From Tubiluchus corallicola (Eukaryota; Priapulida; Priapulimorpha; Priapulimorphida; Tubiluchidae): 64,000 bases of DNA. The position numbers were made by a program, and so were the translations under genes. Location: assembly GCA_030141605.1 (NCBI GenBank), contig JAQGDQ010000485.1:74501-138500 (forward strand), given 5' to 3'. Below are positions 28,560-62,888 of this stretch, one piece after another; position 1 is the stretch's first letter; every line of letters begins with the position of its first letter. The notes beneath the pieces were generated by a model, which saw nothing but the letters and a program-made list of their open reading frames with translations, did no database searches and was not told where the DNA came from.

Positions 28560-29561
28560 ATGGAACCTACGATCTACTTCAAGTGCACAGCCTGTTCTGA
28601 ATGTTTCGTGTCAGAGGACATTTTCTTTGCGCACACCCGTACATGGCACTGTAAAATACTCGTTAGTGAAGGTCAAGATGCAGAGACATCTACGGACGAC
28701 TTTGAAGTATTCAGTGGTAAATGTAATTCAGATAACATTTATGACATTTCTTCCAATGACAGTATGACTGAGTGTACTACTATAAGTGGCAATGCGAGTC
28801 CCGATGTACATGTTACAAAACAGAACTTCATGGGAAATGCTGTACAGCAAGAATCTGTTTTAGAGGAAGACATTATGATTGATGGTATAGATGTCTACAA
28901 TGGTACAAGTTTTCAAACAAATACCGACACTACTGAATTACATAATCACGCCAGTGATGTCTCAAGTAACGAGGAAGAGTCGCAGAAATGTAATGATCCA
29001 TGCGAATTACATTATGTTAAGCAGGAGCAGTACCAATCGTGTCACGGAGAGCACAAAGTGTTGACACAAACGCTAAGCCAAATGGTATCTCAAGCATTTT
29101 CCAATCAGCTTGAAAATACAAAAATGCTGCAAAAAGTTCATTCGGCAAGAACTAATTGTGTCAGGAGAATGAAAAAACTGCAATGTAGCAGTGCAGTGCC
29201 CTTTGAAGGAAAGATTATGAAGCAGTGTGCTTATTTGTGTAGATTTTGCAGAAAAGCATTTAGATCTGCTGCACATGTTGAAATGCACGAACGAATACAC
29301 ACAGGTGAAAAACCTTACTTTTGCAACGTGTGTGGAAAGGGTTTCAGTCTTGAAGGTAACCTCAAAATTCACATGAGAATACACACGGGCGAGAAACCGT
29401 TCTCGTGTAATGTTTGTGAAAAAAGCTTTAATCTCAAAGGGAATCTGAAAACACACATGAGAGTTCACACTGGTGAGAAACCCTACGTGTGTTACGTGTG
29501 CCACTGGCGCTTTTCTCAATCATGTAATCTGAAGTCTCACATGAAAACACACTGCGATTGA
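28560..29561 (+). CDS. Cluster C2H2 zinc-finger protein 1 (4 fingers, N-terminal orphan finger)
   Basis: A predicted nuclear DNA-binding regulator of 333 residues. The ATG at 28560 has ideal context (CACCATGG); an upstream TTG in the same frame is not used. A 3' splice site ends at 28520, so the coding exon is preceded by a 5' UTR intron. Residues 4-46 form the family's invariant module, C-x2-C-x3-F-x5-F-x2-H-x4-H ([10 protein letters not shown] ... HTRTWHC), followed by [13 protein letters not shown]. The linker (about 47-220) is acidic and Ser/Thr-rich with VKQEQ at 153-157, a SUMO-type site; the family site near residue 95 reads VQQES, without its Lys. Four standard fingers occupy 227-247, 255-275, 283-303 and 311-331 with TGEKP linkers. 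The protein ends two residues after the last His. Contact residues (-1,2,3,6) read SAHM, LGNI, LGNT, QCNS. Target unknown. Confidence 0.9.
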   Translation: MEPTIYFKCTACSECFVSEDIFFAHTRTWHCKILVSEGQDAETSTDDFEVFSGKCNSDNIYDISSNDSMTECTTISGNASPDVHVTKQNFMGNAVQQESVLEEDIMIDGIDVYNGTSFQTNTDTTELHNHASDVSSNEEESQKCNDPCELHYVKQEQYQSCHGEHKVLTQTLSQMVSQAFSNQLENTKMLQKVHSARTNCVRRMKKLQCSSAVPFEGKIMKQCAYLCRFCRKAFRSAAHVEMHERIHTGEKPYFCNVCGKGFSLEGNLKIHMRIHTGEKPFSCNVCEKSFNLKGNLKTHMRVHTGEKPYVCYVCHWRFSQSCNLKSHMKTHCD

Positions 29562-29814
29562 ACGCCATTAATTTTGTGACTCAAATTTGTGAATGTGTAA
29601 ATCTGAACTGAACTGAAAATTTTATTAGGATTGTGTTTACAGTTTTTCTACATAAATGGAATCTGAAAGTACCAAGATTATCAACCGGAAAAAGGTGTGA
29701 GCTAGGCAGAACTGGCTTCACAAAGCGCAGATTGTGTGATGCTTTTCTATCTACCCGACAAACTCTGCTTTTTTGTTTTTAGGGACTGATATGAGGGTCT
29801 TTGCTAGGGGTGAG

Positions 29815-30165
29815 CATTCGAGTCAAACCGAACTTCAGTGTTTAGAATTTGAATCAAATTTGAATTACGATTGAAAGATTTTCAAACAAGTTTTCGAACC
29901 ACCAGTATAAAGTGGTCTTACAAGGCTCGCCCATATTACTCGATTTTGTTCTGCAGTAAAACCACTAATAATTTGTTTAAAAATGGTGCACAGAAATCAC
30001 AGCTAAACTGTGCTGAGTGCACGATGTTTCAAACGTTTTAATGATAAAGAACATATGTAGTTGAAGTGCTGAAATATTCGAATCTATAATTTTAGGTTTG
30101 AGTCGAATTCGAACGTTGGAATTCGATTCGATTTTTCGAACTCGAACGTTTGATGCTCACCCCTA
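29815..30165. mobile_element. hAT-type MITE (TAGGGGTGAGCATTCGA family)
   Basis: Inverted termini TAGGGGTGAGCATTCGA and TTTGATGCTCACCCCTA. The flanks GTCTTTGC and ATCATTGC are only partly alike, so the TSD is decayed. The interior is AT-rich with repeated TTCGAAT words. Confidence 0.75.
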
Positions 30166-30676
30166 ATCATTGCATGTCATTGATTTGTAATCTTTCATTT
30201 ATGACTTTTGAGGATGCTAGTTGGACGGCGTTTCTGAGTTTTGATTTGGTTATTGTCCAAAAGTTCCGTTTAGTGTGCCATGTATTGCCGTAACATCATT
30301 TTATCTGGTGCATAACCATCTTTAGCTGTTTTGTTTCTGGTAGTCTCATGTACTAGGTTGTCTTATTTGCTTGCAATTATTTATGCACTTTGATTATTTT
30401 AAGGCAGTCAATTACTCGTCCAAAAAATTTGTGGTGATATGTACATTTCTGGCATACATTTTTATAATCATGTTTCGATTATGTGTAAAAATTTTTACTC
30501 TTTATAATATGTAACATATATACAGTTAGACATTTAAGGAAACCAATATGTATCGAAACACTTTTTTGTTTTCTGTATGATATTATCACTTTACGAATTA
30601 CAAATGTGAGAATTCGTACATGGGAACATTTTTTATATGTCGTACTAGTCGGTGAAGATTTGTACAACCTCACTAC

Positions 30677-31200
30677 TTAAAGGAAAACCGGGCAATTGCA
30701 TAGAAGTTAGTTCAAAATAAAGTATGCTCTAACATGTTAAAAACTACAACAGCGTTCTTTAAATCGAAGCTTAGGTTAAGAATTAGTTTACCTCGGATAC
30801 TCAAATTTTGTTAAACTTTCAAAGCTACGTACCGCTTGGCAAATCCACTAAACTGGCAATGGCGCCCTTTTCTCAAGGCGCAGTATCGTTATAAGCAAGA
30901 TCATATTCGTGTGTGAGGTAAGTGGATGTAGAGCTCATTTTCGTGTTATCAGATCAGCGTCTTATAGAAATCTTCGCTTATGCAAGCTGATTATGCAGGA
31001 AGATGCCTGCCAGTGAACAAACTGTCGTTAGTTTGTGACATAAGCGATTGCGGTGTTTGGTTGCGGTAATTGTTAATTAACTATAAGGTAATTATTCATT
31101 TATTGGAAACAATTGCTAACTTTTATAGGCACAAAATGTATGTTTTGGACAGTAATTAAAATAAGATTGAGTCTAATAAATCCTCCGGTTTTCCTTTGAA
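30677..31200 (+). mobile_element. TTAA-type MITE (AGGAAAACCGG family), copy a
   Basis: It begins TTAAAGGAAAACCGG and ends CCGGTTTTCCTTTGA (the right TTAA has decayed to TTGA). It is one of six copies, all within the zinc-finger half of the window. Non-coding. Confidence 0.75.
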
Positions 31201-32267
31201 AGACCTGTCAGAATAACAGCTGATTTAAACAGGTTATAGAGCAGTGTTTAGGCCTATAGTTAGCATGTAGTGGTATTTTAGCAACATTTGTTAATAGGAC
31301 CTATGATTTTAAGCTAGCAGCATGTTAAAAATTTTATGTATTTTGACTGAGTTAATGTAATGCTTTTACGTGAAGTTCTAAAAAATACATAAGATTTAAT
31401 GGTTTTAGTCTTCATTATTTGTGACAAAAAATAAGTAATTATAGTAACAAAGTTTCACGCATTTACAAAAATTGTTGTGGTGAATATGGCTTAAAAAAGT
31501 GCAAGGTTCTAACAAGATATATTATATATCTTATATATATAAATATAGTCTTATTATATATTGCAAAATGCACAAAGTACCATAATACTCATGAATTCAG
31601 TCGTCATGACTGAAAAATTATATAAACTGATATACATGTAATTAAACTTTTATAAAATGTATGGGCTTCTAAAGCTTGGAACGATGCCTTAAAATGGTTT
31701 AGTATCAATGCAATACAAATAGAATGCATGTTCCCAGGATTCACGGGGGAGAGAAGAACGTATCTTTGCTACGTTACACATGTAGCTTCAATGTCTGACT
31801 GTTCCTGCACGGTAAGTATGGTTACTTGGTGCAGACTTAGTGCAAATTAGTCAGCGTCAAGTGATAATTGTGTTGGCACCTTTCAAGTGTAGGGGTGGAG
31901 AAGGAAGGCGGTTTTCGTTTCGGAAAAGCTGATGCGTCACTAGTTCAGAGATGTAAGCGAAGGTTTCTGCGCTCGTTTGTGAATTTGTCGTTTTATTTGT
32001 TTTCGCGAGTACAAAGCATTATTAAATTTACAATTACTTTTACTAGTGCATTTTATGTGAATGAATTTGGACTTTAATGGCTTTATTTTTTATCGCAGAT
32101 ATAGTTCGACTGTATTAAGACAAAAATAAAAAACACATTAACTACAGCGTGTTTCCTTTTTATACCAAAACAAGAATTTTCAATTTGGAGACTGCCGTCT
32201 CGTCAAGAAAGGACGCTTGCACATTTTGTAAGTGCAACTATTGTGCCTGTCTTTCCAAAGTTATATT
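31201..32267. other. Spacer with a possible decayed zinc-finger exon
   Basis: At 31739-31812, between an AG and a strong donor (CACG|GTAAGTATGG), the plus strand reads FTGERRTYLCYVTH, reminiscent of a finger linker and first Cys (HTGEKPYxCxVC). It may be finger debris or a 5' exon of gene 2. The rest is AT-rich without visible features. Confidence 0.3.
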
Positions 32268-32429
32268 TATAATGTATCCTTAATAGTTAGGTATTTTAAA
32301 TTATGCATGAAACAAGGTAATTGATATTTTAAGTCCACTTAGAGGCTCTCTATGGTCACGAAATTGTAATTTGTTGCTGCGTACGGCCTGTTTCAGAGTT
32401 TTTTGCAATTTGTAATTCTCATCTCTGCT
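32268..32429 (+). mobile_element. Right-end fragment of the CAGGGATGAGAA hAT-type MITE
   Basis: It matches about 485-651 of the full copy at 184-651 (AAATTATGCATGAAACAAGG through TTTCAGAGTTTTTTGCAA) and ends with AATTCTCATCTCTG, the terminal repeat. The left part is missing. Confidence 0.75.
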
Positions 32430-32496
32430 GTTAATAATGAATATAGTAATTCTATGCATTGGCTACTCAGAAATACAAATAAAAATGAGTAAACCA

Positions 32497-33022
32497 TTAA
32501 AGGAAAACCGGATGATTGTGTTAACACGAGTTCAGAATAAAGAATACAATAGCTTTTTTTAAATCAATGCTTAGATTAAATAATAATTACCTCGGATACT
32601 CAAATTTCGTTAAACTTTCAAAGGTACCCGCGACTTAGTGAATCTACTAAGATTGGCAACGGCCCCTTTTTGTCACATTCGCATGGCCGATAAATAGAAG
32701 GCAGTACCGTGATAAGCATGATCATGAACTGCAGTGTTTGTTTCTGACGTCATATGACGTAGAGCCCGTTTTCGTGGCATCACGTGTTTAAGCAGTAACA
32801 CTTACGTAAACATGCTTGACACGCAAGTTAAGATGCCTGCCATTGCACAAACTGTGGTTAGTTTCTGATGTAAGCAATAGCTGTGTTAGGTTGCCGCTAA
32901 TTAACTTTCTAAGCTAATTATTTAAAATATAAGAAACAATTGCTAACTTTTATAGGCAAGAAAATGTGTATTTTGGGCGGTAAATTTAACTGAGCCTAAA
33001 CAATCGTCTGGTTTTCCTTTAA
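32497..33022 (+). mobile_element. TTAA-type MITE (AGGAAAACCGG family), copy b
   Basis: TTAAAGGAAAACCGG at the left and GGTTTTCCTTTAA at the right, with TTAA at both borders. It contains a perfect CRE palindrome TGACGTCA at 32745-32752 within TGACGTCATATGACGT. Confidence 0.85.
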
Positions 33023-33187
33023 ACAAGATAGTAAAATTAAAGTTACGTATAAACTGTAAATAACAAATCACACACTCTAGCCTCATCAAACATGTTATTG
33101 TTTTCATTATCATACAGTAAATTGTCGCTAATAAAAACAACTTTAATCCTTGCATTATATGATTGTAATTATTATATTACCCTAAGT

Positions 33188-33754
33188 CAGTGGTTCTTAA
33201 CCTTGTTGGATGTACCGAACCCCACCAGTTTCATATGCGCATTCACCAAACCCCTCTTTAGTGAAAAATAAAATATGATTTTTTTCAAATTCAAGACATA
33301 GATATGTTTTTTACTGGTACACAAAATGAGCCGTGCATGAACATCACCTTGTTCAAAGAACAAAACCAACACAATGCATAAACTCACAACAAATTACATA
33401 CCTGCAAATCAGTGTGCTTCTGCTGTTGCCTTTGAGAGACCAGTTCAGATATGCGTGCCTTCACCTCAGCAAGTGCCACTCTCATGTCATTTTCACAGCA
33501 AAGTCTGTTCCTTTTCTTCGTTTTTATGTGTAGCATCCTCGAAAAGGATTGCTCACAAAGATATGTTGTAACAAATGGTATAAAAAAATCCAGGGCTTTC
33601 TTAGCAATAACTGGATACTTGTTCATTTGTCGACACCAAAACGTTGAGAGCGTTGTTATTCTGAAAAGTTGCTGTTGAACCTGGCTCTGCCGAACCCCTG
33701 AGATCGACTCACCGAACTCCTAGGGTTCGATCGAACCCAGGTTAAGAACCACTG
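33188..33754 (-). mobile_element. Internally deleted hAT transposon with transposase C-terminus
   Basis: Termini CAGTGGTTCTTAACC and GGTTAAGAACCACTG are perfect inverted repeats. Flanks CCCTAAGT (33180-33187) and CCATAAGT (33755-33762) match at 7 of 8. On the minus strand, 33384-33626 encodes a hAT dimerisation domain: YPVIAKKALDFFIPF, TTYLCEQSFSRMLHIKTK, then RNRLCCENDMRVAL. It resembles the transposase family that gave rise to ZBED5/SCAND3-type host genes. The N-terminal DNA-binding and catalytic parts are absent, so the element is non-autonomous. Confidence 0.88.
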
Positions 33755-34306
33755 CCATAAGTACAATGAAAATAAGTTTTCTTTCACTACATTGTTGGCA
33801 CAGGCGTATAAGTATGTTTCCAACTGGCTTTAATTTATTATTTGGAGTCAAATTAATACAAGCTGCTATGCTTTAGTTGACTGATTCGTAACATGTTGCA
33901 TGAAGTTACATTGACCGAGGATTTTCAGCGCTTTTTTTAAATTTCTTCGGCAACTGAACATTGTATGAGGAGATGTTTGTGGAAATTAATTTTGCATTAG
34001 TTCACAAGGTTCTTCAAAGGTTATCTGGTTGTATCGAGGTTTTAATAGTTAATAATCAGTAAAACCGCTATCAAGAGCAAGATAATGCCCACAGAGAGCC
34101 ATAATCTTGTTTCTTGTCAACTTTGATCTATTTTACTGCGACGTGGAACAGGTGCTGACAGCACAATGTGGGCATAAATCGATTTGGGTTTACACGTTGT
34201 TCAGCCATTTGGACTAAATTCCTTTTAGCACAAACTTGTTTGCTAGGTTGTGTTTTCATTTGATATCAGTGGTGTTATAACATTCTGATCATATTGAAAA
34301 CTGGAG

Positions 34307-34666
34307 CCTCGTCTGATCACCGAAGTTAAGCAACATAGAGCCTGGTTAGTACTTGGATTGGTGACCGCCTAGGAATACCGGGTGCTGTAGGCTTACGGGA
34401 TGCCCACACTGTATCTTGACACTAGCAGCCAATGGCTAGAGGGCGGAGGAGGTCAAGTGACTCAACAGTCTTGTGTAGAGGAGTAAACCTTCCTGATCAG
34501 GAGTGGAGCCCCGAAGGCGGACCAGTGCAGCATGCTCACTGACTCCGGCAGCTCCTGCAGCCAACCTGGTGCCAAACATATCGCTCCGCTTTCCTTTGGA
34601 CTACACCAGGGAGGAAGAGAGGGGGTTCCTGTTGTCTGGGCAACTCAGTATGCCAACAACAACAAT
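34307..34666 (+). mobile_element. 5S rRNA-derived SINE, full length
   Basis: The head (34307-34395) closely follows the last three-quarters of 5S rRNA: CTCGTCTGATCACCGAAG, then CCTGGTTAGTACTTGGAT, GACCGCCTAGGAATACCGGG and TGCTGTAGGCTT. It keeps the region of the internal pol III promoter (box A, intermediate element, box C). A body of about 260 bp follows (GGAGTGGAGCCCCGAAGGCG, CGGCAGCTCCTGCAGCC, GTTGTCTGGGCAACTCAG) and the element ends in an (AAC)n tail at 34653-34666. The body recurs inverted at 52748-53163. The plus-strand ORF over it is incidental. Confidence 0.85.
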
Positions 34667-35315: not shown

Positions 35316-35317
<2 letters not shown>

Positions 35318-36147: not shown

Positions 36148-36954
36148 ATGGAACCATTGGTCTACTTTAAATGCACAGCCTGTTCTGAATGTTTTGTTTC
36201 TGAGGACATTTTCTTTGCACACACCCGTACCTGGCATTGTAAGATCTTGATTAGTGAAGGTCAGGATGCGGAAACAGAGGATGAAGATGAATATTCTATC
36301 TGTGCTGGCGAGTTTGAAAGTGCAGCTGACGATAATTCTTGTACAATATCCAGTGCTTCTGTATGTGAGAAAATCATTGATTATACAGCTGGTGATTCTG
36401 AAAGTGACAAATACGTTGATCATAATAAGGAAAGTGATATTAAAAGTGAGCCAATGCCTCAATTCGGTGAGGATTTTCCAATTTTCGAGACTAATGCTCG
36501 AAGCAATGATCACAGTGCGGTATTAGATGATGGTCCAGCCAGCACCATAATAAATCAACTACATCTTTCTGACTTTTATTCAGGGGTGCGACATATTCAG
36601 GAGAAACCACATCAAATACCTGCTAGTCAGAGCAATGTTTTACCACAGATAACACTACACCAAAGTCAAAAGAAAATTAATAAAATATGCTACGCGAAAA
36701 AATTATTATCGTCTAAAGGACAGTCGGTAAAAACGACAATCGAACCATTCGGCTCGGCTGAAAAGCAGCCGCGAAAAGAGTCGGCTTATTTCTGTCGCTT
36801 TTGTCGGAGGCCATTTTGTGCGCCTGCACATCTAATACGACATGAACGAATTCACACAGGTGAAAAACCTTTTGTGTGCTCCGTGTGTCAGCGGGGTTTT
36901 GCCCAGGCGGGTAACTTAAAAGCTCACATGAAGACGCATCGTATGCCTGATTGA
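36148..36954 (+). CDS. Cluster C2H2 zinc-finger protein 2 (2 fingers)
   Basis: 268 residues, starting at the ATG 35 bp after a 3' splice site (AG at 36111-36112). The invariant N-terminal module is intact ([31 protein letters not shown]). A very acidic stretch follows (EDEDE at 44-48), then the SUMO-type motif IKSEP at 98-102. Only two C-terminal fingers are present, at about 216-236 and 244-264 (contact residues AAHR and QGNA), separated by TGEKP. The protein ends four residues after the last His. Two fingers contact only about six base pairs, so dimerisation or a partner would be needed for selective binding. It is the shortest intact member, and the fewer fingers could be ancestral or a deletion. 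Confidence 0.9.
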
Positions 36955-37562: not shown

Positions 37563-37691
37563 GTATGTGTGAACAGAACCATTATGAAAGTAACAACAGC
37601 AGTGTTTCAGTTGAAATAGAATCTTGTCAACTCTTATGTGCAGCTGAGCCTGTATGAAGTCATTAAATTATTTTTCATTTCTATGACTTTA

Positions 37692-38232
37692 TTAAAGGAA
37701 GACCGGACGATTGTTTAGACTCAATCTCATTTTAATTTACTGTCCAAAATATACATTTTCGTGCCTGTAGAAGTTAACAATTGTTCCTTATATTTGAATA
37801 ATCAGCTTAGAAAGTTAATTAACGGCAACTGAACACGGCCATTGCTTACATCAAAAACTAACCACAGTTTGTGCAATGGCAGGTGCCTACCCTTGCGGGT
37901 CAAGCACGTTTGCGTAAGTGTTACTTCTTAAATGCATGATGTCACGAAAAATGGGCTTTACATCATATGACATCATGAAACTAACACAGCAGTTCATGGT
38001 CATGGTTATCACGGTACCGCCTTCTATTTGTCGTGACAAAAAGGCGCCGCTGCCAATCTTAGTAGATTCACTGAGCCGCTCGTAGCTTTGAAAGTTTAAC
38101 TAAATTTGAGTATCCGAGGTAATTATTATTTAATCTAAGCTTTGATTTAAAAAGAGATATTGTAGTTTTCAATATTTTAGAGCATTCTTTATTCTGAACT
38201 CGTGTTTACACAATCATCCGGTTTTCCTTTAA
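37692..38232 (+). mobile_element. TTAA-type MITE (AGGAAAACCGG family), copy c
   Basis: TTAAAGGAAGACCGGACGATTG to CCGGTTTTCCTTTAA with TTAA at both ends. It ends 280 bp before the acceptor of zinc-finger gene 3. The CRE site is mutated here (TGACATCA). Confidence 0.85.
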
Positions 38233-38548
38233 GGATTTTAGGAAAATGAATCTTTTTTTCTGTTTTTGTTCAGTGCCTCGCTTTCCGGCATTTCACAATT
38301 AATTTATTAATCCTGTGACTTAATGTGTACAAAGCTGAATGCAAATTTAAACTATTTTTGTAATGTATAAAATTCAATAAAACAATCTAATTTCTTAATT
38401 TAATCTGTTAGTATCTTTGCAAATAAGAATAGAACAAAATAGATCACCGGAAAGTTTAAAATATCACATGAACCTAAACTGTCCTTTGTACTGCTTTCAC
38501 ATGCATTTTAGGTTTTTCTTGGTGAATAAAGATTGATGAACAAACACA

Positions 38549-39574
38549 ATGGAGCCAATGATTTACTTCAAATGTACAGCTTGTTCTGAGTGTTTTATGT
38601 CAGAGGATATTTTTTTTGCACACACCCGTACCTGGCACTGTAAAATACTAATTAGTGAAGGTCAGGATGCATATACCTCTACCTTGCATAGAGCCGGATC
38701 AGTTTTTGACGCGAAGACTTACATTTCCACTGAGGAGAGTTTTCATGCAAAAAATGACATTTATAGATCCAGTGGTGTTCAAGCTAATGAAGAGAAAAGC
38801 AGATGTACACCGGCAGTTTCGACTGACCTTCGTGGTACCCCCCATTCTCTCCTTGATGAAGGTACTTTAAAAGTGGAGCCAAGCTCTGAACTTGATTACT
38901 GTTTAATGGCAGGAAGTGGGAGTGCAAGCGAAATGGTAAGTTCGCTAAATTATGCCAGCAGCATTACTGTAAGTAATGTAGCGTGGAAACAATCACCTCG
39001 TCTTTTGTCAAGTGAATCATCTGTTTATCAGGCCGCACGGGGAAAGGTTTTTTCCCAGGAAGTAAATCAGACATCAGAAAATAAAGTGAAACAGTGGGAT
39101 AAGAAAAGTGTGCTTGGTAAAGCAAAGATGTTCAAAGATCAGTACAGTACAAGCAGAATGCAACCTTCTCCAAGAGCAGATTTTTCGCAGCCAAACAAAG
39201 AAGTGCATATTGAAACGCAAAGACCTAAGAGAAGGACAGTGTATATCTGTCACGTTTGTGGTAAAGCGTTCAGATCAGCTGCTCTTGTTGACCAACATGG
39301 ACGCATTCATACAGGTGAAAAACCTTACTCCTGTGATGCGTGCGGAAAAAAGTTTACTTTTGAGTGGAACCTAAAAACTCACACTAGAATTCACACCGGT
39401 GAAAAACCATATTCCTGTCACGTGTGTGGAAAAAGTTTTGCTGTAGTGTCCAACTTGAGAGCCCACGTGAAAATTCACACAGGTGAAAAACCTTTTACAT
39501 GTTCAGTTTGTGAAAAAGGTTTTACTCAGAATCGTGACTTAAATAAACACTTGCTGATACACAGTAATTTCTGA
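38549..39574 (+). CDS. Cluster C2H2 zinc-finger protein 3 (4 fingers)
   Basis: 341 residues. The acceptor AG is at 38510-38511 and the ATG is 38 bp downstream (ACAATGG). A weak out-of-frame upstream ATG lies in the leader at about 38535. The N-terminal module is intact ([32 protein letters not shown]). The linker (about 45-225) is Ser-rich and includes LKVEP at 107-111, the conserved SUMO-type position, and a basic patch RPKRR just before the fingers that may serve in nuclear import. Four regular fingers lie at about 234-254, 262-282, 290-310 and 318-338 with TGEKP linkers. Contact residues read SALQ, FWNT, VSNA, QRDK. All Cys and His ligands are present. It is the most canonical member of the cluster. 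Confidence 0.92.
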   Translation: MEPMIYFKCTACSECFMSEDIFFAHTRTWHCKILISEGQDAYTSTLHRAGSVFDAKTYISTEESFHAKNDIYRSSGVQANEEKSRCTPAVSTDLRGTPHSLLDEGTLKVEPSSELDYCLMAGSGSASEMVSSLNYASSITVSNVAWKQSPRLLSSESSVYQAARGKVFSQEVNQTSENKVKQWDKKSVLGKAKMFKDQYSTSRMQPSPRADFSQPNKEVHIETQRPKRRTVYICHVCGKAFRSAALVDQHGRIHTGEKPYSCDACGKKFTFEWNLKTHTRIHTGEKPYSCHVCGKSFAVVSNLRAHVKIHTGEKPFTCSVCEKGFTQNRDLNKHLLIHSNF

Positions 39575-45998: not shown

Positions 45999-47369
45999 AT
46001 GGATCCTTTAATCTACTTCAAATGCACGGCCTGTTCTGAATGTTTTATGTCAGAGGACATTTTCTTTTCGCACACTCGAACCTGGCACTGCAAGATTCTT
46101 GTCACTGAGGGTCACGATGCAGAGACTGTGCTTGATGTTAGCTTACATGCTTTTAGTGAAGATGACTCTGATATAGTTGACCTCAGTTCTTCTGGCATGT
46201 GTAACTCTACTGCGATGAATGACAGAAATGAATGTGCTACTCCAAAAGGCAATGCTGTTGATACTAGCTCACTTGCAAAGAAATATTTGGATGATAATGG
46301 TGTAAAGATTGAGCCAGTCTCTCAGTTAAACGATGGTATTACAACAGATGATGCGAGTGAAGAAGACCAAATCATGCGCATTGAAAATAGTGCAAGCATT
46401 GTAGCTCCATTTGATACTCGAGATGCAAGCATGAAGGATCCAGAAAGTGAAATCCTACCTCAGCCAGTAGATGAGACATTTGTCCAACAGGAACCGACTT
46501 TCAAGTTTATAGATGACAACGCTGGCATTGTAGCGCTGGCTGACGCTCATAGTACTAACAGAAAAGACCAGCAAAGCAGAAGCCCACCTCCGTTTACAAC
46601 AAAGGAAACACACATTAAACAGGAACCATCAGTCATGTGTGTAGGAGATAGTGCAGGCATTTTAGTTTCAGATGATGCTCATGACACTAATGTAGAACAT
46701 CAACAAAGTCCGAATCCATCTCAGCTTGCTGGTGGAAAGACGTGTATTCAACAGGAATCGTTCAAATTATCTGATGTGTCTGATTACACCTTGCTGGAAG
46801 CAAAGTGCTTGCCTCATAGAGGGAGGTGGACAGTGAGAAAAAGGACACATCTTGATAACTTGCCAGACATGTTTAAAAATCATATTACGAAAAAGAAAAA
46901 ATCCGAAAGAAAACAAGTGCCAACGCTCAAGCCTTTTGGAAAACAAAATACAAGAGAATTTGCATATCAGTGCGGGAAAGCATTTCAATCAGTTGCAGAA
47001 GTCGAAATGCATGACCGCTTTCACACTCATGCAAAACAGTACTCTTGCAATATCTGTAAAAAAGTCCTTTCTTCTAGAAGCAGTTTGAAGTCGCATTTTA
47101 GAAGTCATACAGGTGAAAGACCGTTTGTGTGTTCGTTTTGCAAGAAAGCTTTTCTACAGACCGACGCTCTGAGATCACATTTAAGAATTCACACGGGCGA
47201 AAGACCGTTCATTTGCTCTTTTTGCCAAAAGGGTTTCGCTCAGTCTAATAATCTGACGGCACATATTAGAATTCATACTGGCGAAAAACCGTTTGTGTGC
47301 CGTTTTTGCCAAAAGGGTTTTGCACAGTCTTCCAACTTGAGAAGTCACAATAAGACGTGCCGTAATTGA
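45999..47369 (+). CDS. Cluster C2H2 zinc-finger protein 4 (largest member, internal repeats)
   Basis: 456 residues; ATG 47 bp after the acceptor at 45952. The N-terminal module is intact ([32 protein letters not shown]). The linker is the longest in the cluster. After VKIEP (102-106) come three tandem 44-residue repeats (132-bp period) at about 129-172, 173-216 and 217-260. Their equivalent cores read VQQEP, IKQEP and IQQES, so only the second keeps the SUMO-acceptor Lys. A basic patch (ITKKKKSERK, about 296-305) is a likely nuclear localisation signal. The first finger is broken: three residues including one Cys are missing (AYQCGKAF instead of AYxCxxCxKAF). Four fingers follow at 350-370, 378-398, 406-426 and 434-454; the last is C2HC (HNKTC). 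Contact residues read SSSS, QDAS, QNNA, QSNS. Confidence 0.92.
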   Translation: MDPLIYFKCTACSECFMSEDIFFSHTRTWHCKILVTEGHDAETVLDVSLHAFSEDDSDIVDLSSSGMCNSTAMNDRNECATPKGNAVDTSSLAKKYLDDNGVKIEPVSQLNDGITTDDASEEDQIMRIENSASIVAPFDTRDASMKDPESEILPQPVDETFVQQEPTFKFIDDNAGIVALADAHSTNRKDQQSRSPPPFTTKETHIKQEPSVMCVGDSAGILVSDDAHDTNVEHQQSPNPSQLAGGKTCIQQESFKLSDVSDYTLLEAKCLPHRGRWTVRKRTHLDNLPDMFKNHITKKKKSERKQVPTLKPFGKQNTREFAYQCGKAFQSVAEVEMHDRFHTHAKQYSCNICKKVLSSRSSLKSHFRSHTGERPFVCSFCKKAFLQTDALRSHLRIHTGERPFICSFCQKGFAQSNNLTAHIRIHTGEKPFVCRFCQKGFAQSSNLRSHNKTCRN

Positions 47370-49563: not shown

Positions 49564-49740
49564 ATGGAGCCAATAATCTGTGTCAAATCACAGGCCGTTC
49601 CGAATGTTTTATGCCAGTGAACATTTTTTGCATGCACCTGTACTTACTACTTAGCAATGTGTAGGATTCTGATTAATGTAGGTCAGAATGCATTTGACAA
49701 TTCTTGTGGATCCAACATTGTGAAGGTTAACGATACCATG
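49564..49740 (+). pseudogene. Decayed N-terminal module of a cluster zinc-finger gene
   Basis: After a family-type acceptor and a 45-bp leader, ATGGAGCCAATAATC and the following ~150 bp align with the invariant module of the intact genes (CAGGCCGTTCCGAATGTTTT; ATTCTGATTAATGTAGGTCA). Substitutions and indels introduce a stop by codon 19 and destroy the Cys/His ligands. The linker is cut off by the TTAA-type MITE at 49758 and no fingers follow. Confidence 0.85.
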
Positions 49741-49757
49741 CAGAGTGACCTGTATTA

Positions 49758-50314
49758 TTAAAGGAAGACCGGACGATTGTTTAGGCTCAATCTCATTTTA
49801 ATTTACTGTCTAAAATATACATTTTCTTGCCTATGAAAGTTAACAATTGTTCCTTATATTTGAATAATTAGCTTAGAAAGATAATTAATGGCAACTGAAC
49901 ACAGCTACTGCTTACGTCAGAAGCTAACCACAGTTTGTGCAATGACAGGCATTTTCCCTTGCGCGTCAAGCACATTTGCATCAGTGTTACAGTACTGTTT
50001 AAACGCGTGATGTCACAAAAAATGGGCTCTACGTCATATGACGTCAGAAACTAACACAGCAGTTCATGATCATGCCTATCACGGTACCGCCTTCTGTTTG
50101 TCGGCCACGCGCACGTGATAAAAAGGCGCCGCTGCCAATCGTAGTAGATTCACTGAGCCGAGCGTAGCTTTGAAAGTTTAACGAAATTTGAGTATCCGAG
50201 GTAATTATTATTTAATCTAAGCTTTGATTTAAAATAAGCTATTGTAGTTTTCAATATTTTAGAACATTCTTTATTCTGAATTCGTGTTTACACAATTATC
50301 TGCTTTTCCTTTAA
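49758..50314 (+). mobile_element. TTAA-type MITE (AGGAAAACCGG family), copy d
   Basis: TTAAAGGAAGACCGGACGATTG to TGCTTTTCCTTTAA, TTAA at both borders. A perfect CRE palindrome TGACGTCA is at 50039-50046. It lies directly behind the decayed zinc-finger module. Confidence 0.85.
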
Positions 50315-50654: not shown

Positions 50655-51945
50655 AGTCTGTTCGTCTATAATTCTGTTTCTGGCCTTGTGAATAAAGTTT
50701 CAAGCCAAACTTTCTGTTCATCTATAATTCTGTTTCTGGCCTTGTGAATAAAGTTTCAAGCCAAACTTTCTGTTCATCTATAATTTTGTTTCTGGCCTTG
50801 TGAATAAAGTTTCAAGCCAAACTTTCTGTTCATCTATAATTCTGTTTCTGGCCTTGTGAATAAAGTTTCAAGCCAAACTTTCTGTTCATCTATAATTTTG
50901 TTTCTGGCCTTGTGAATAAAGTTTCAAGCCAAACTTTCTGTTCATCTATAATTCTGTTTCTGGCCTTGTGAATAAAGTTTCAAGCCAAACTTTCTGTTCA
51001 TCTATAATTCTGTTTCTGGCCTTGTGAATAAAGTTTCAAGCCAAACTTTCTGTTCATCTATAATTCTGTTTCTGGCGTTGTGAATAAAGTTTCAAGCCAA
51101 ACTTTCTGTTCATCTATAATTCTGTTACTGGCCTTGTGGATAAAGTTTCAAGCCAAACTTTCTGTTCATCTATAATTTTGCTGGCCTTGTGAATAAAGTT
51201 TCAAGCCAAACTTTCTGTTCATCTATAATTCTGTTTCTGGCCTTGTGAATAAAGTTTCAAGCCAAACTTTTTGTTCATCTATAATTCTGTTACTGGCCTT
51301 GTGGATAAAGTTTCAAGCCAAACTTTCTGTTCATCTATAATTCTGTTTCTGGCCTTGTGAATAAAGTTTCAAGCCAAACTTTCTGTTCATCTATAATTCT
51401 GTTTCTGGCCTTGTGAATAAAGTTTCAAGCCAAACCTTCTGTTCATCTATAATTCTGTTTCTGGCCTTGTGAATAAAGTTTCAAGCCAAACTTTCTGTTC
51501 ATCTATAATTCTGTTTCTGGCCTTGTGAATAAAGTTTCAAGCCAAACTTTCTGTTCATCTATAATTCTGTTTCTGGCCTTGTGGATAAAGTTTCAAGCCA
51601 AACTTTCTGTTCATCTATAATTCTGTTACTGGCCTTGTGGATAAAGTTTCAAGCCAAACTTTCTGTTCATCTATAATTTTGTTTCTGGCCTTGTGGATGA
51701 AGTTTCAAGCCAAACTTTCTGTTCATCTATAATTTTTTTTCTAGCCTTGTGAATAAAGTTTCAAGCCAAACTTTCTGTTCATCTATAATTCTGTTACTGG
51801 CCTTGTGGATAAAGTTTCAAGCCAAACTTTCTGTTCATCTATAATTCTGTTACTGGCCTTGTGGATAAAGTTTCAAGCCAAACTTTCTGTTCATCTATAA
51901 TTCTGTTACTGGCCTTGTGGATAAAGTTTCAAGCCAAACTGTTTG
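50655..51945 (+). repeat. 56-bp minisatellite, about 23 units
   Basis: Units of TTCTGTTCATCTATAATTCT, GTTTCTGGCCTTGTGAATAA, AGTTTCAAGCCAAACT repeat every 56 bp; one unit near 51176 has a 3-bp deletion. Two unit types are interspersed: GTTTCTGG with GTGAATAAAG, and GTTACTGG with GTGGATAAAG, the latter commoner to the right. The 56-bp period is not a multiple of three and no long frame crosses it. The first type carries an AATAAA hexamer in every unit. Confidence 0.97.
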
Positions 51946-52682
51946 TTCTAACTTCTTCATCTTTAACTAATAAGTTGCTAATTAACTAATAACTAATAAT
52001 CTAGGGTTGTCTCATTCAGCATGCTTTCCTGAAACCACAGCATCTGGTTTATAAGGTAAGATAAAATAAATTTTTGCAAGGAATTTACAATTCGCCAGAC
52101 AGTTTAAATGCACTAGCCCCTAACCCCGAAAAATATAGATTTAGCCATTTATTTGAGGTCACTTTTATTTGGATATCGAGTTACCGAGATTTGATATTTT
52201 TGATCCTGAATGCCATTTGATTTTTTTTAAAGCACAGCTGACATAGGTAAGGAGTTTAATGTTTTCCTTGACCTTGAAATGCAGATTTAGTCATTTATTT
52301 GGAATAGTTTGGATATTGGGCTACCTAGGTATATCACTTTTGTGTTTTTGTTGGGAATCTTGGATATAACATGTCATAACATGAATGCATGTCTAGACTT
52401 TCTTCCTGTTATTTTCCATCTCGAAAGTGTTTTAGGACCATAAGGCGAAGCTAGTAAATTTTGCTGCGGTAAATAACGTGGAGTGCAAAATGACCCCTGT
52501 AAGCCCCCGACTGTTAGGTTCCACGGGAAGAATCGTGGAACTTTGTCTTTGCTGATGTTCTTTTTGAAACTAGTATATTTAGCCCAAATTTTTTTCATAT
52601 CAGATATTTGCATAATTAATATAAACAGTTAGTTTAAACAATATTTTCATTTGACAAGAAATATTATAATTGTAATAAGTAC
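51946..52682. other. Spacer, nothing recognised
   Basis: Two loosely similar blocks (TTTAGCCATTTATTTGAGGT and TTTAGTCATTTATTTGGAAT) about 135 bp apart hint at an old tandem duplication. No gene seen. Confidence 0.4.
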
Positions 52683-53213
52683 AATTTCAATAATGCTTTA
52701 AATAATACTAGACCATTATGGTAAAGTTTCATCATTCATTGTGCAGCGCACAGGTACATGCTGTTGTTGGCATCCTTCTGTCTCGGAAGACAATGGAGTG
52801 TGCGCCAAGAGAGCCTGTTATTGATCACATTGATAGAGCTGCAGCGTCGACTGTGGCTGAGCGATCCGATCCTTGAACGTCTCCAGGGCGCACGCCTGGG
52901 CAAGGTGTATGGATATCCTGAGTTGCCCAGACAACAGGAACTCCCTCTCTTCCCTCCCTGGTGTAATCCAAAGGAAAGCGGAGCGATACGTTTGGCATCA
53001 GGTTGGCTGCAGGAGCTGCCAGAGTCAGTGACCATGCTGCGATGACCATGCCGCCTTCGGGGCTCCACTCCTAATTTGGAAGGTTTACTCCTCTACACAT
53101 GGCCTTTGGGTCACTTGACCTCCTCCACCCTCTAGCCGTTGGCTGCTTGTACAGCTCCTCTGCTGAAACTTTACCATCATGGTCTTAGTATTATCCGAAG
53201 CATTATTGAAATT
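52683..53213. mobile_element. Element with ~50-bp terminal inverted repeats enclosing a SINE body
   Basis: Left 52683-52731 (AATTTCAATAATGCTT ... ATGGTAAAGTTTCA) and right 53164-53213 are inverted copies matching at about 45 of 50 positions. Between them lies an inverted copy of the body of the 5S-headed SINE. I cannot tell whether this is a transposon that captured a SINE or an inverted duplication around it. Confidence 0.65.
52748..53163 (-). mobile_element. SINE copy without the 5S head (minus orientation)
   Basis: The reverse complement matches the body of the SINE at 34307-34666 (AACGGCTAGAGGG, GGAGTGGAGCCCCGAAGGCG, GGCAGCTCCTGCAGCCAACC, TTGTCTGGGCAACTCAG). The 5S-like head is absent. 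About 160 bp of extra sequence beyond the shared 3' boundary contain CGGATCGCTCAGCCACAGTC. Confidence 0.75.
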
Positions 53214-54035: not shown

Positions 54036-55149
54036 ATGGAATCGATGATTTATTTCAAATGCACAGCCTGTTCTGAATGTTTCATTGCTGAGGACATTTT
54101 CTTTGCGCACACCCGTACCTGGCACTGTAAGATACTGATTAGTGAAGGTCAGGATACAGACATCGCCTATTGACAACTTTGCAGCGTCCACAAACAAAAA
54201 TTTTGATGCAGCTGACAGCTCTTATGGGAACTGCGATGTTGCTGCTAAAGATGTTGCTATCAGCAGATCTAAAACTTCGAGGAATCATCATCTCGGTGAT
54301 GATCAAGACGCGGAAATTTCTCAAATTAACAGCGGCTTCCCAAGTTCCACAAGGAGCAATTTTGACATAATCAGTGGCTCCTGCGAAAAATACGATGTCT
54401 GCGCCTCTAATGGTAATAATAGTCAACATTCTAATGTGTGTAACAATATGCCTGATAAAAATTCATCTCTCATAGAGACTAACCTTAATGCAAATGCAGT
54501 AAAGACCGAACCGACCTCTCCATTAGATGATGTGGGTTACGGCATAAATGCAACGACTAATGTATGTGCACAAGCTGATTTGAACAGTATAAAAGTAAAT
54601 GATGATCCTGGCATCGACAGAATAGAAGAACAACAGCAATCACTCTTACCTTTCCTGTCAACACTAGAGTGTGCTTCATCAACAGATATTTGCAGAAGTG
54701 CAAATGTTGCACAGCCAATTAACTTATTTTCCAACCAGAGGAGATATTCAACAAGAGTAAATGAGTTACACATGCAAGCTGGCATATACCGGCCAAGCGA
54801 AAACGCTCTCGTAAAAGAATCTGCTTATTTCTGTCGATATTGCAGACGAGCGTTCAAATATCTCGAGCATGTTAAAAGACATGAAAGAATTCACACGGGT
54901 GAAAAACCTTTTTCGTGCAGTGTGTGTAGAAAACGCTTCAACCAAGAAGGGAATTTAAAAATTCACATGGTGACTCACACAGATGAAAAACCGTTTTCTT
55001 GCAACGTGTGTGGAAAACGTTGTAATCTAGAAAGAAATCTAAAAAGGCACATGAAAATTCACACAGGTGATAGACCTTTTATGTGTTCTATTTGTAATAA
55101 ATGCTTTACTCAGTCTTCTCACTTGAAAAAACACATCGTGACCCACTAA
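54036..55149 (+). pseudogene. Cluster C2H2 zinc-finger gene 5, frameshifted after the N-terminal module
   Basis: The acceptor AG is at 53993-53994 and the ATG at 54036. The N-terminal module is intact ([29 protein letters not shown]), but the frame then stops at 54171-54173 after 45 codons. Compared with paralogs (GATGCAGAGAC), this gene reads GATACAGAC: two bases of an AGAG run are missing at about 54156. The other frame is open from 54142 to 55149 and encodes the rest of a normal member: linker with VKTEP (genomic 54499), then four fingers with contact residues YEHR, QGNI, LRNR, QSHK. In the third finger the core Phe is Cys (GKRC), and the second linker is TDEKP. Over 300 clean codons after the lesion mean it is very recent, polymorphic, or an assembly error. 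Confidence 0.85.
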
Positions 55150-58103: not shown

Positions 58104-58556
58104 TGGTTGTGTGAACTTTGAAGTCGTGTAGGCAAGCTTTTCTTAAATCATAGCAATTTAATTATCTTCTTTTAAAATTATGCTGCATTTCTTAGCGTTT
58201 GTAAGATAAAGATTTAAATTAATTTATTTCACATTCACGGTTAATAATCAGTACAAAAGATCACAACAAAATACAAAGATTGCCAAAAATGTGAGGGCAA
58301 CATGGGACCCATAGGTTCTTCGCATGTTGGGATAGACACATCTTATGTCTGATGAGCAGTTTATATAAGTTGTAGACTAGAAAGCGCGCTTAAAGTTATT
58401 GAGTCGTTATTGACTTTGTGTCTTGGATTCGTGCCTCATGATTTTTGGTTACTTGTGGCCCATCCCTCTTCTGTTCCTTTAATTATTAGCATTAGTTACT
58501 GTTATATAAAGTAGTTTATTACCCTTTTATAATATTCTATTTTTCAACTTGCAGTA

Positions 58557-59098
58557 CTAATCGTTATTAGACTCAACCTCATTTTAATTTACTGTCTAAA
58601 GTATACATTTTCCTGCCTATAAAAGTTAACAACTATTCCTTATATTTGAATAATTAACTTTGAAGGTTAATTAACGGTAGCCGAACACAGCTATTGCTAA
58701 CGTCAGAAACTAGCTTCAGTTTGTCAATAGCAGGCGTCTTCCCTTGCGCATCAAGTACATTTGCATAGGTGTTACAGTACTGTTTAAAAGCGTGATGTTT
58801 CGAAAATGGGCTTTACATCATATGACGTCAGAAACTAACACAGCAGTTCATGACCATGGTTATCACGGTACCGGCTTGTATCTGTCGGCCCAACGAATGT
58901 GACAAAAAGGCGCCGCTGCCAACCTTAGTAGATTCACTGGACCATGCATTGCTTTGAAAGTTTAACGAAATTTGAGTATCCGAGGTAATTATTATTTAAT
59001 CTAAGCTTTCATTTACAATAAGGTATTGTAGTTTTCAATATTTTAGAGCATTCTTTATTCTGAACTCGTGTTTACACAATCATCCGGTTTTCCTTTAA
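58557..59098 (+). mobile_element. TTAA-type MITE (AGGAAAACCGG family), copy e, left-truncated
   Basis: It matches copies c and d from TAATCGTTATTAGACTCAAC to CCGGTTTTCCTTTAA. The left terminus is lost. CRE palindrome TGACGTCA at 58823-58830. Confidence 0.8.
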
Positions 59099-59385
59099 GT
59101 AAATTACAGTCACCTTGATTCTAATCGGTACCATCACAAATCGCCAGTAGTCGGGAATAAAGGCAATTCTCTTGACCTTATTCTCAACAAGTTAAAATTA
59201 CTACTTACATAACACTAGACCCATATCATTACAATGAGTGTGGATAGAGAGGAGTTAATTCCAGTCTAGTATGACTAATCATACTAATTGAATCATTTCT
59301 CACAGCTTTTAGTTCTACAAATTTCTGCAGTTTCTATTTATAGCCGCTCATTCCATCTTGTACAACTGGCATGAAAAACTTTGTA

Positions 59386-59824
59386 CAGTCAACCTTGGAT
59401 ATAAGGGACACGTCGGGGCCAGAAAAAACCGTCCCTTATATCCGATGTCCCTTATAGCCGAAGTTGAGTCAGACTGAGGGTGAATCTAGACTTGTACTTT
59501 TCTGCACTTTTACCCATATTATTATAGATTATTGCTACATAGTCAGTGCAAATGGTATGTATGAAGCTCCTTCAGTGATGCGAGATGTATGTGACCGCGG
59601 AAACCGAGCTGTTTGAAGGCCGAGTTTGCGAAAAATTGGGGTTAAAAATCGATCACGGTTTCTATTATGCGGGACCTGAAGATACCGTCCCTTATAACCG
59701 AAAGTCGTTTATATCCGAGTACCTTATATACGAAGATTTTTACATAGGAAAAACATTACGAAAAATTGGGACCCGTGTTGGTGATCCTTTATATAAGCGA
59801 GTGCCTTATACCCGAGGTTGACTG
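59386..59824. mobile_element. TA-flanked MITE (CAGTCAACCTCGGATATAAGG family), copy 2, complete
   Basis: CAGTCAACCTTGGATATAAG at the left and CTTATACCCGAGGTTGACTG at the right, bounded by TA (59384-59385 and 59825-59826). The 78-codon plus-strand frame inside is incidental to the repeat. Ends resemble pogo/Tigger-type elements. Confidence 0.85.
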
Positions 59825-60139
59825 TACCACTGATTCTATCCCAGTCTGTTAAACTATTAAAGCAGAGATCACATTACCTGGACATCTTACTCGATCTTCC
59901 AATGAACTGTGACTAGTCTGTGATTGTAGAAATAACATAAAATGAGTCTTCGTTATTGTGGGCATCAAGCTTACTGACCAGAAATTCTCTGTCAATGTAT
60001 GGCTAGCTTTTTTTGTGAATTGGGGTCAAGTTGCCAAATTTCCAGTCAAGTGTATGCACAATATGTACAATTGTGAAATAAGAGGTTATGCAGCTCTTTC
60101 AGGACTCTAGGTGATAACCATTGGGTGCCTATAATTTAC

Positions 60140-60695
60140 TTAAAGGAAAACCGGTTGATTGTGTAAACACGAGTTCAGAATAAAGAATTCTCTAAAATAT
60201 TGAAAACTACAATAGCTTTTTTTGAACCAAAGCTTAGATTAAATGATAATTACCTCGGATACTCAAATTTCGTTAAACTTTCAAAGCTACGCGCGTCTCA
60301 GCGAATCCGCTAAGATGGACAGTGTTGCGTTTTTGTCACGTGCGCTTGGCCGACAAATAGAAGGCAGTACCGTGATAACCATGCTCATGAACTGCTGTGT
60401 TAGTTTCACGACGTCATATGAAGTAAAGCCCATTTTTCGTGATATCATGCGCTTAAGCAGTACTGTAACACCTATGCAAACAAGCTTGACGCGCAAGGGA
60501 AGACGCCTGCCCTGCCAAACTGTGGTTAGTTTCTGACGTAAGCAATAGCTGTGTTCGGTTGCCATTAATTATCTTTCTAAGCTAATTATTGAAATATAAG
60601 GAACAATTGTTAACTTTCATAGGCAAGAAAATGTATGTTTTGGACAGTAAATTAAAATGAGATTGAGTCTAAACAATCGTCTGGTTTTCCTTTAA
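60140..60695 (-). mobile_element. TTAA-type MITE (AGGAAAACCGG family), copy f
   Basis: TTAAAGGAAAACCGGTTGATTG to CAATCGTCTGGTTTTCCTTTAA, TTAA at both borders, in the opposite orientation to copies c-e. The CRE position reads CGACGTCA, one base from perfect. Frames inside on both strands are incidental. Confidence 0.85.
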
Positions 60696-61407
60696 AGTGA
60701 TTTGGCCTACAGTTGTAGTTTAGTGTTAATAGTGTCTTTATTAATAATGATGTGGTTTGAGAGCTTTCCGTTGCATGTATTTAACATATTGGGTAAGTAC
60801 AATTACAATTCACACAATACATACACAGTTTACAAAGATATAAACACATACATATATAAATGCTATAAAAACAATTACTACGTTATTAAGAATGCAATTA
60901 TACATGTCAAATTCAATAATTTAAACTAAAGACAGAACATCAAACTTTGACGTACAAACCCAATAAACTCGCCATTGTTTGTCGATGTTGTAGTCTCATA
61001 AACTTTGCATCATGACAGGGAGGTAGTTGCAAATCATGCAGGATAACAGGTTTTGCCCCTTTGATGATCACCTATTTTTACTAGCCTAGTAAAAAGTAAG
61101 CAATTTTTCAACAATAATACTGCCAAACCATTTCTGATAAATTAAACAATAGATTAAAAAGTTTATTAACTGCTGGCAAACCCAACTATTGATGACATAA
61201 TAAATGAACATAATTTTCAACAACACAAATATTCCATGAGCGTGTTACACGTGTTTGCAAAAGCGAAAATTGAAGTATAGTGCTACTGTACGAGATTCAG
61301 CATGATATACTAAACTCGACAAATTTTAAGATAAAAGATTCAAATTTCAAATTTACCTATGCGCTCACACATGAGCTTTCGAAAGTGTGTGCTATATCAT
61401 AAACAAA
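60696..61407. other. AT-rich spacer
   Basis: No supported feature; short frames only. Confidence 0.45.
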
Positions 61408-61878
61408 CACCTCTGAACTTAGAGGTACAGCACCTGTTTTTTGTGCAACTTATTTCTGATAAGTAGGCACTAGTTCCTGTCTAATTACCCAATGACGAAA
61501 CACGGTGAAGAACCAGCCGTAGGAACACGAAATTACTTTTGCGTGATAACAGTTCTGTCACGTAAGTCCTTCTTGAAAGAATAGTATGTTTCTTTTCAAT
61601 ATTTTAAAGAGTACATTGTTTTGACCTACAGTTTAAGATTGGGTCCAGTTTTTAACGAACACCTCTGAACTAAGAGATACAGCACCTGTTTTTTGTGCAT
61701 CGTATTTCCGAAATATAGGTGCTAGTGCCTAGCTAACTAACCAATGACGAAATGCATGTCACAGTGAAGAACCAGCCGTGGGATCACGAAATTACTTTTG
61801 CGTGGTAATAGTTTTTTTTTCATTATTTTAAAGAGTATATTGTTTTCACCTACAGTTTAAGATTGGGTCCAGTTTTCC
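61408..61878 (+). repeat. Tandem duplication (~250 bp) upstream of zinc-finger gene 6
   Basis: Units begin CACCTCTGAACTTAGAGGTA at 61408 and CACCTCTGAACTAAGAGATA at 61660. Both include CAGCACCTGTTTTTTGTGCA, GTGAAGAACCAGCCGT and TTTAAGATTGGGTCCAGTTT. The second unit ends CCAGTTTTCCTTTAA, reminiscent of the TTAA-type MITE ends. The array stops about 65 bp before the gene 6 acceptor. Confidence 0.85.
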
Positions 61879-61988
61879 TTTAAGTAGAAGGATGCGTATT
61901 TTAACTTTATATGAACATATAAATGTTTCTGTTTACTTTTTAGGTGCAGGAAAATAGCGAACAGCAGTGACAAAGCAAACAACATAAA

Positions 61989-62888
61989 ATGGAACCAATG
62001 ATTTACTTCAAATGTACTGCCTGTTCTGAGTGTTTTATGTCGGAGGACATTTTCTTTGCGCACACCCGTACATGGCACTGTAAGATTCTCATTACGGAGG
62101 GTCAGGATGCAGAGACTTCTATTGACAATGACCTTTCAAGTTATGACCGCAAGTCTGAAGAATCTTATGGATTTTCTGCCGTGGTCGCATCCAGTGATGA
62201 TATTTCTGATTATATAACTGACGCCAGCAAGTGTGCAGATGGAGACTTGATTAGTAAACAAAGCATTTTCAGTGATGAAGTCTGTCTGAAGCTCGAACCA
62301 GATTCTCAAATAAATGACAAGTCTTTCACAGATGCTACGAGCCAAATGTCAACTCCAAAAACTAATATTGATATTGTTACTATTGAAGATGACAATAGCG
62401 GCTTAGATAAGCATGACACGCATACACCTCATTCTTTACCAGTGCCGCAGTATCTTGATCAAAGCATGTGCCAAAGCTCTCGTAGTTCAAACTATCGCTC
62501 TCCAAAATTGCCACCATTTCTCAGCCATTTAAAAATGAAAACGAAGCATCCGAAATTTAGTGCGACACTGCAGTCTCATTTCGGACAGTCCATGCCCGTG
62601 TCGGTCAGGTCAACAAAGTCAAATACCAGAAAGGAAACAGCATATTTCTGTCAGTACTGCCGGAAGGCATTTACAACATTCCAAGGGCTTCAAAGACATG
62701 AGAGGATTCACACGGGTGAAAAACCTTATTCTTGCAATGTGTGCGATAAACGTTTCACGGTGTCGTGCAACCTGAAAACTCACATGCGTGTTCATACTGG
62801 AGAAAGACCTTACAAGTGTACTACATGCCAGAGCAGCTTTGGTCAGCTTTCAGAACTGAAAAGACATACAAGGTCACACACAAGGTGA
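61989..62888 (+). CDS. Cluster C2H2 zinc-finger protein 6 (3 fingers)
   Basis: 299 residues. The acceptor AG is at 61942-61943 and the ATG lies 45 bp further (AAAATGG). The N-terminal module is intact ([32 protein letters not shown]). The linker (about 44-218) is acidic and Ser/Asp-rich at first, with the SUMO-type motif LKLEP at 100-104 followed by DSQIND, which closely matches the VSQLND context of gene 4. A basic Lys/His region (KMKTKHPK, about 182-189) precedes the fingers. Three complete fingers lie at 221-241, 249-269 and 277-297 with TGEKP and TGERP linkers; contact residues read TQGR, VCNT, QSER. The protein ends two residues after the last His. AATAAA signals at 62926 and 62994 lie in a tandemly duplicated segment. 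Confidence 0.92.

Follow-up and report, generated by a model that had tools for sequence, protein, structure and literature searches.

A clustered C2H2 zinc-finger family of a priapulid with a near-constant N-terminal finger and a SUMO consensus motif in its linkers

Six zinc-finger genes in a 64-kb window

We analysed a 64,000-nucleotide stretch of the priapulid Tubiluchus corallicola (assembly GCA_030141605.1, 343.5 Mb in 2344 contigs; contig JAQGDQ010000485.1, called C2089 here, positions 74501-138500), referred to below as the window, which carries a group of C2H2 zinc-finger genes that begin with a near-constant finger of their own (the module). A first-pass annotation, made by a model from the letters and their open reading frames, had reported six same-strand genes with this N-terminal finger, plus remnants. 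Using tblastn, we located six near-invariant module copies, one at the start of each of the six genes and all on the plus strand (E-values 9e-32 to 1e-24), together with a single remnant. The genes and the features associated with them are as follows.

28496..28559, plus strand: acceptor-like TTTTAG/GT and 39-nt 5' untranslated region (UTR), directly before g28
28560..29561, plus strand: g28; module 28560-28697, [VIL]KxE site 29016-29027, four C2H2 fingers 29238-29552
36148..36954, plus strand: g36; module 36148-36285, SUMO consensus IKSEP 36439-36453, two C2H2 fingers 36793-36939
38549..39574, plus strand: g38; module 38549-38683, SUMO consensus LKVEP 38867-38881, four C2H2 fingers 39248-39562; ortholog P0016
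45999..47369, plus strand: g45; module 45999-46136, SUMO consensus VKIEP 46302-46316 and IKQEP 46614-46628
47046-47360, plus strand: four C2H2 fingers of g45, preceded by a decayed finger
49564..49692, plus strand: module remnant, degraded, with an internal stop codon (tblastn E 0.003)
54036..55149, plus strand: g54; module 54036-54161, frameshift, body 54139-55149 in another frame, VKTEP 54499-54513, four fingers 54832-55146
61989..62888, plus strand: g61; module 61989-62126, SUMO consensus LKLEP 62286-62300, three C2H2 fingers 62649-62879
28521, 36113, 38512, 45953, 53995, 61944, plus strand: exon starts of the six genes at acceptor-like sites

Five of the genes are open from ATG to stop codon. 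The sixth, g54, is frameshifted directly behind the module, with the remaining 336 codons open, and because its module and the rest of the protein lie in different frames it is either a broken gene at this locus or a misassembly. No finger part adjoining the remnant was found by tblastn with the fingers of one gene. Next to the remnant there is a weak match to mir-184 (E 0.32), which we attribute to chance. The linkers between module and fingers no longer align, as had been noted in the first pass: when forced, their identity is 14-32% (10 pairs of five genes, leaving out the frameshifted g54).

A splice-acceptor-like site, TTTTAG/GT or TTCTAG/GT, lies 35-46 nt 5' of the ATG in all six window genes; the copies thus resemble duplicates of an ordinary gene that has an intron in its 5' UTR, and not retrocopies. 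Genome-wide, such a site precedes 47 of 97 core loci (module matches of 60 bits or more), where shuffling gives a mean of 19.5. We rejected the candidates for a common upstream promoter or first exon, as the best pair (g28/g54) shares 56 bp of AT-rich low complexity and the remaining matches are dispersed repeats or short and weak. The cluster extends upstream on the contig, giving 11 close plus-strand copies between 56 and 137 kb, six of them inside the window, and one divergent copy on the minus strand.

A genome-wide family with a solitary N-terminal finger

All six window modules fit the pattern C-x2-C-x3-F-x5-F-x2-H-x4-H proposed for them. The helix had been described as SEDIFFA and nearly identical between copies; its acidity and constancy hold, and the exact string occurs in four of the six, the other two having SEDIFFS and AEDIFFA. 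Structure prediction of the module alone with AlphaFold2 (AF2; six window modules) gave a strand at residues 5-9, a hairpin, a helix at 19-26 and an extra strand at 32-36, with a mean predicted local distance difference test score (pLDDT) of 74.8. This beta-beta-alpha fold and the ligand set C-x2-4-C-x12-H-x3-5-H place the module among C2H2 fingers; the best window module scores 14.9 bits against the Pfam zf-C2H2 cut-off of 25.2 bits.

The domain, which the first-pass annotation did not recognise, matched no Pfam or NCBIfam model above its cut-off: Pfam gave sub-threshold matches only, and NCBIfam, a library that covers prokaryotes, gave nothing relevant. Among the Pfam matches listed with E-values up to 1, neither KRAB nor zf-AD appeared, whether for the modules or for the six window proteins (for g38, the 25 best-scoring of 31 families; for g54, the body only). 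A genome-wide zf-AD search also returned no match, but its control likewise succeeded in 0 of 14 genomes. Searches of PDB sequences with the module returned weak matches only, the best being a designed C2H2 protein (E 6e-4). A literal search for the module peptide returned 0 papers, keyword searches of an open-access library named no paper on the module, and the terms N-terminal, associated domain and SUMO were absent, as word-start matches, from the main text of a 2025 paper on cephalopod C2H2 proteins (PMC12513265).

The first-pass annotation had proposed counting members and looking for clusters, which we did in the host genome. With the 47-residue module of the first gene as query (E up to 0.001), we found 119 matches, 113 of them outside the window, spread over 45 contigs by hand count. 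The largest groups were on C478 (17), C2149 (15), C2089 (12, including the window), C1347 (7), and C1737 (6). The figure of 119 is not an exact gene number, as near-identical loci (L036/L037/L045) may be uncollapsed haplotypes or recent copies and divergent family members may escape the count. The near-identical pairs L036/L037 and L050/L081, on contigs C478 and C539, are possibly two haplotypes of a single locus; L081 (C539) is a short open frame without fingers. Among 28 stretches with the pattern in prokaryote genome contigs and 67 in viral contigs, no relative of the module was confirmed.

At least one C2H2 finger follows the module in the same open frame at 110 of the 119 loci, and none in frame at the other nine. 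The arrays are mostly of two to four fingers, with two the commonest number (53/119) and 20 the maximum; the stretches examined were mostly about 2 kb, so some counts may be low. The maximum belongs to L106, a 1682-residue open frame that is far longer than other members. The first of these fingers begins at least 100 residues beyond the module in 108 of the 110 loci, the exceptions being L104 (7 residues) and L107 (61). A divergent subfamily (L110, L113, L114, L116, L119 and L120, on C1737) differs from the other members in its N-terminus and in the tail of the module and carries five to six fingers; it retains C9, C12, H25, H30 and C31 and may be an older lineage within the family.

Once the alignment register of L021 and L102 had been corrected by eye, Cys9 and Cys12 are present in all 119 copies, and His25 and His30 in 118, the exception being the degenerate L103. 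A further cysteine directly after the last histidine (Cys31) is absent only from L104. In a hand-chosen set of 43 diverse aligned copies, K8, C9, C12, E19, F22, H25, H30, and C31 are invariant. Across the 97 core copies the helix carries E at +1 in 96, E or D at +2 in 88, V or I at +3 in 78, F at +4 in 96 and A at +6 in 83. The entropy at +1 is 0.08 bit, compared with 3.64 bit in 263 C-terminal fingers, and the mean net charge of the finger core is -1.9, compared with +2.9 in those fingers. A DNA-reading finger has polar or basic residues that vary at -1, 2, 3 and 6, and another finger beside it; the module has acidic and hydrophobic residues that stay constant and is distant from the next finger, and this lone acidic finger appears to be a poor candidate for that role. 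The earlier reading of an associated domain thus stands in so far as a constant C2H2 module, unlikely to read DNA, is carried by a clustered family; neither of the refuting outcomes named with it, membership of an already named domain or use as a normal DNA-binding finger in single-copy genes, turned up in the profile libraries and the host genome searched.

We compared the proportions of synonymous (pS) and nonsynonymous (pN) differences between the parts of the proteins. Pooled over the window, the module has pS 0.59 and pN 0.076 and the linkers have pS 0.73 and pN 0.57. In the window fingers (pS 0.78-0.87) pN is 0.51 at contact codons and 0.30 in the scaffold, and in the first finger of 90 loci it is 0.65 and 0.42, respectively; the residues that would select DNA thus differ between paralogs. 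Over the 97 core loci (4656 pairs) the module has pS 0.89, which is saturated, and pN 0.156. As judged from these codons, the module is under purifying selection tighter than that on the finger scaffold, and its constancy reflects selection and not recent copying, because change at synonymous sites has reached saturation whereas the residues have changed little.

Linkers, orthologs and surrounding sequence

The linkers contain the motif [VIL]KxE, which is the SUMO acceptor consensus (PMC12630355). It was present in 16 of the 17 linkers read first (six from the window and 11 from found proteins), where shuffles give 2.2 on average and at most 9 in 20,000. All six proteins read after the motif was noticed have it too, giving 22 of 23, with P0009 the one without. 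At this stage, [VIL]KxE ranked 1 of 126,674 three-residue patterns; the p-values of this screen assume independent linkers, which paralogs are not.

The 113 loci outside the window, minus seven with linkers shorter than 60 residues and three near-duplicates, supplied 103 further linkers. The motif occurs in 80 of them (shuffle mean 13.8, maximum 27 in 2000 shuffles) and again ranks 1, here of 126,896 patterns. Without any exclusion the count is 85 of 113, and after removal of 14 orthologs of first-set proteins it is 67 of 89 (shuffle mean 12.1, maximum 24). By closeness, it is found in 67 of 84 close copies and 13 of 19 divergent ones. Eight of nine related control patterns were at or below expectation, and the ninth, [VIL]KxK, was slightly above it (16 versus 11.7). 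Of 17 core linkers without the motif, 11 have a looser site of the AKxE or IKxD type and six have none. Proline immediately follows the motif in 25 of the 103 linkers.

Around the motif disorder is predicted, with linker pLDDT mostly about 50 or lower in the one member modelled with AF2. The linkers thus combine the two marks of a SUMO substrate, psi-K-x-E and a disordered surrounding, the first in the 22/23 and 80/103 linkers above and the second in that one model. None of the 23 linkers has a co-repressor motif of the CtBP, eh1, WRPW or HCF type, while PxVxL occurs in two (0.74 expected) and a pattern like a SUMO-interacting motif (SIM) in four (4.45 expected).

Of 17 proteins from other public assemblies, 15 form reciprocal best matches, each with a single family member of this genome. 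These one-to-one orthologs imply that the family expanded before the lineages concerned split. In the 14 pairs long enough for comparison, identity is 454/499 in the module, 2037/2862 in the linker, 616/677 in the finger scaffold and 143/156 at DNA-contact residues. A single pair, P0008/L063, accounts for eight of the 13 contact differences and may consist of paralogs. Judging by these residues, the DNA specificities compared have been stable since the lineages split. In a phylogenetic tree, P0016 and g38 paired with support of 100/100 within a group holding g28, g54 and g61; g36 and g45 had no firm placement, and many branches were long. Four points go beyond the first-pass annotation: the linker consensus, Cys31 as a constant residue, how large the family is, and the retention of finger contacts by orthologs.

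The remaining features of the window include a dispersed repeat of about 550 bp, six copies of which lie between the zinc-finger genes and are 68-89% identical:

30676-31197, 32497-33022, 37689-38233, 49755-50314, 58567-59098, 60140-60695, both orientations: copies of the ~550 bp repeat

A 5S rRNA-like stretch lies at 34276-34393 (Rfam RF00001, 50.5 bits), and the DNA just downstream of it (34421-34651) recurs inverted at 52915-53150 and reads as a 5S-derived short interspersed nuclear element (SINE). Between these genes there are also a remnant of a hAT transposase dimerisation region (33384-33719, minus strand; PF05699, E 1.1e-6) and a minisatellite (50657-51948) of 23 copies of a 56-bp unit with 96% matches. 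Upstream of the six genes, an inverted repeat (8852-10225 and 11761-13132; 1375 bp, 98.8% identity, arms about 1.5 kb apart) indicates a young element or a recent rearrangement. A RhoGAP exon (7853-8311, plus strand; PF00620, E 9.6e-14), presumably ARHGAP19-like, also precedes them, as does a 325-residue open frame (24701-25678, plus strand) that resembles the end of a non-LTR (long terminal repeat) reverse transcriptase and lacks Pfam matches with E-values of 0.01 or below.

Interpretation and comparison with known systems

The explanation that we favour, with a probability of roughly 0.6, is that the family comprises about 100 transcription factors that are regulated by SUMO, are probably repressive and dock a common protein through their N-terminal finger. 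Each protein would have three parts. The solitary, near-constant N-terminal finger would bind a shared protein partner, presumably a single one, instead of DNA. The long disordered linker would be free to vary outside a SUMO acceptor site; this site most often reads [VIL]KxE, in some cases with proline next, and its lysine would be SUMOylated. The C-terminal fingers, usually two to four in number but as many as 20, would select the DNA target and differ between paralogs. SUMO and the module would together recruit co-repressors, and most members would then repress; repression is proposed because SUMO usually represses transcription factors, according to the accounts in PMC7915335 and PMC12630355. 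Two observations weigh against this explanation: across the 15 ortholog pairs, 16 of 20 occurrences of the motif survive in strict form, and conservation of the motif K and E exceeds that of K and E elsewhere in the linkers by just a narrow margin (p ~0.08 each). A more specific version, which we put forward as tentative, is that the module docks a single dedicated cofactor, which could be a SUMO ligase or a SUMO-reading corepressor and would modify or read the linker in cis. The family would then be a counterpart, evolved independently, of the entire KRAB repression system, with about 100 specificities in one genome and without a KRAB domain.

Alternatively, the module could be a dimerisation domain like ZAD, which dimerises, and pairing would join short arrays into longer composite sites. 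Arrays of two fingers, as found at 53 loci, would gain from this, the edge strand predicted behind the beta-beta-alpha core could serve it, and another module of zinc-finger proteins, DUF3669, oligomerises (PMC6923878). We consider it doubtful, since near-identical modules would let all members pair and would provide no selectivity. In addition, CLAMP 40-153, which includes a comparable finger, formed no dimer by nuclear magnetic resonance, though CLAMP 1-153 met full-length CLAMP in a yeast two-hybrid assay, as described in PMC9226498.

A second alternative is that the family acts in transposon silencing, like the KRAB and FiNZ proteins, and expands alongside the transposons. The window cluster does sit among dispersed repeats, the contact codons of paralogs are more variable than the finger scaffold, and the KRAB pathway runs through SUMO to SETDB1 (PMC7915335). 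We regard this as unlikely too: two to four fingers define just a short site, and the contacts kept between orthologs are unlike the adaptive evolution reported for FiNZ genes (PMC10547256). The stable one-to-one orthologs suggest lasting regulatory roles rather than a fast arms race with transposons.

It is improbable that the module reads DNA or RNA as an ordinary finger, with a single fixed target; such a finger would have the full ligand set and nearly one sequence across copies, as the module does, but the module is net negative, with acidic residues at +1 and +2 and a hydrophobic one at +3, and stands apart from the next finger. Least credible of all is that the module owes its constancy to recent duplication or gene conversion without function, because, although its lower pS in the window (below that of linkers and fingers) leaves room for some local homogenisation, recent copying is contradicted genome-wide by saturated synonymous sites and by modules 66-94% identical in proteins of other assemblies, so that just a local effect is left.

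The KRAB and ZAD families combine a constant N-terminal module with variable C2H2 arrays and occur in genomic clusters. The same arrangement is described for FiNZ genes (PMC10547256). Our family differs from all three in that the module is itself a C2H2 finger, in the coding frame and exon of the array, that the arrays mostly have two to four fingers and that orthologs keep their contacts. It joins the small group of zinc-finger families whose effector part stays constant as they expand, and brings to that group an associated domain that is unnamed; its stable ortholog contacts make it a test case for a large clustered zinc-finger family outside a fast arms race. The survey in PMC10547256 took only open frames with at least five fingers, by which criterion none of the six window genes would be countable, and surveys of this kind would overlook most of the family.

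The DUF3669-KRAB proteins ZNF746 and ZNF777 have an extra N-terminal protein-interaction module and a potential SUMO acceptor with an important part in repression; their DUF3669 is not the same domain as our module and occurs in amniotes, with six members in humans (PMC6923878). The pairing of a module with a SUMO site in our family suggests a common route to repression. AFV1p06, an archaeal virus zinc finger, is also among the closest known systems. CLAMP of Drosophila has a lone N-terminal C2H2 finger with atypical contacts that binds MSL2 and stands apart from the DNA-binding cluster, which means that a C2H2 finger at the N-terminus can function in binding a partner protein (PMC9226498). 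CLAMP ranks weakly in the fold and profile lists for our module (E 0.35, no significant sequence relation) and is described as a single protein and not a large family. Our results suggest that the constant effector part of such a family can itself be a zinc finger, switched from DNA to protein binding.

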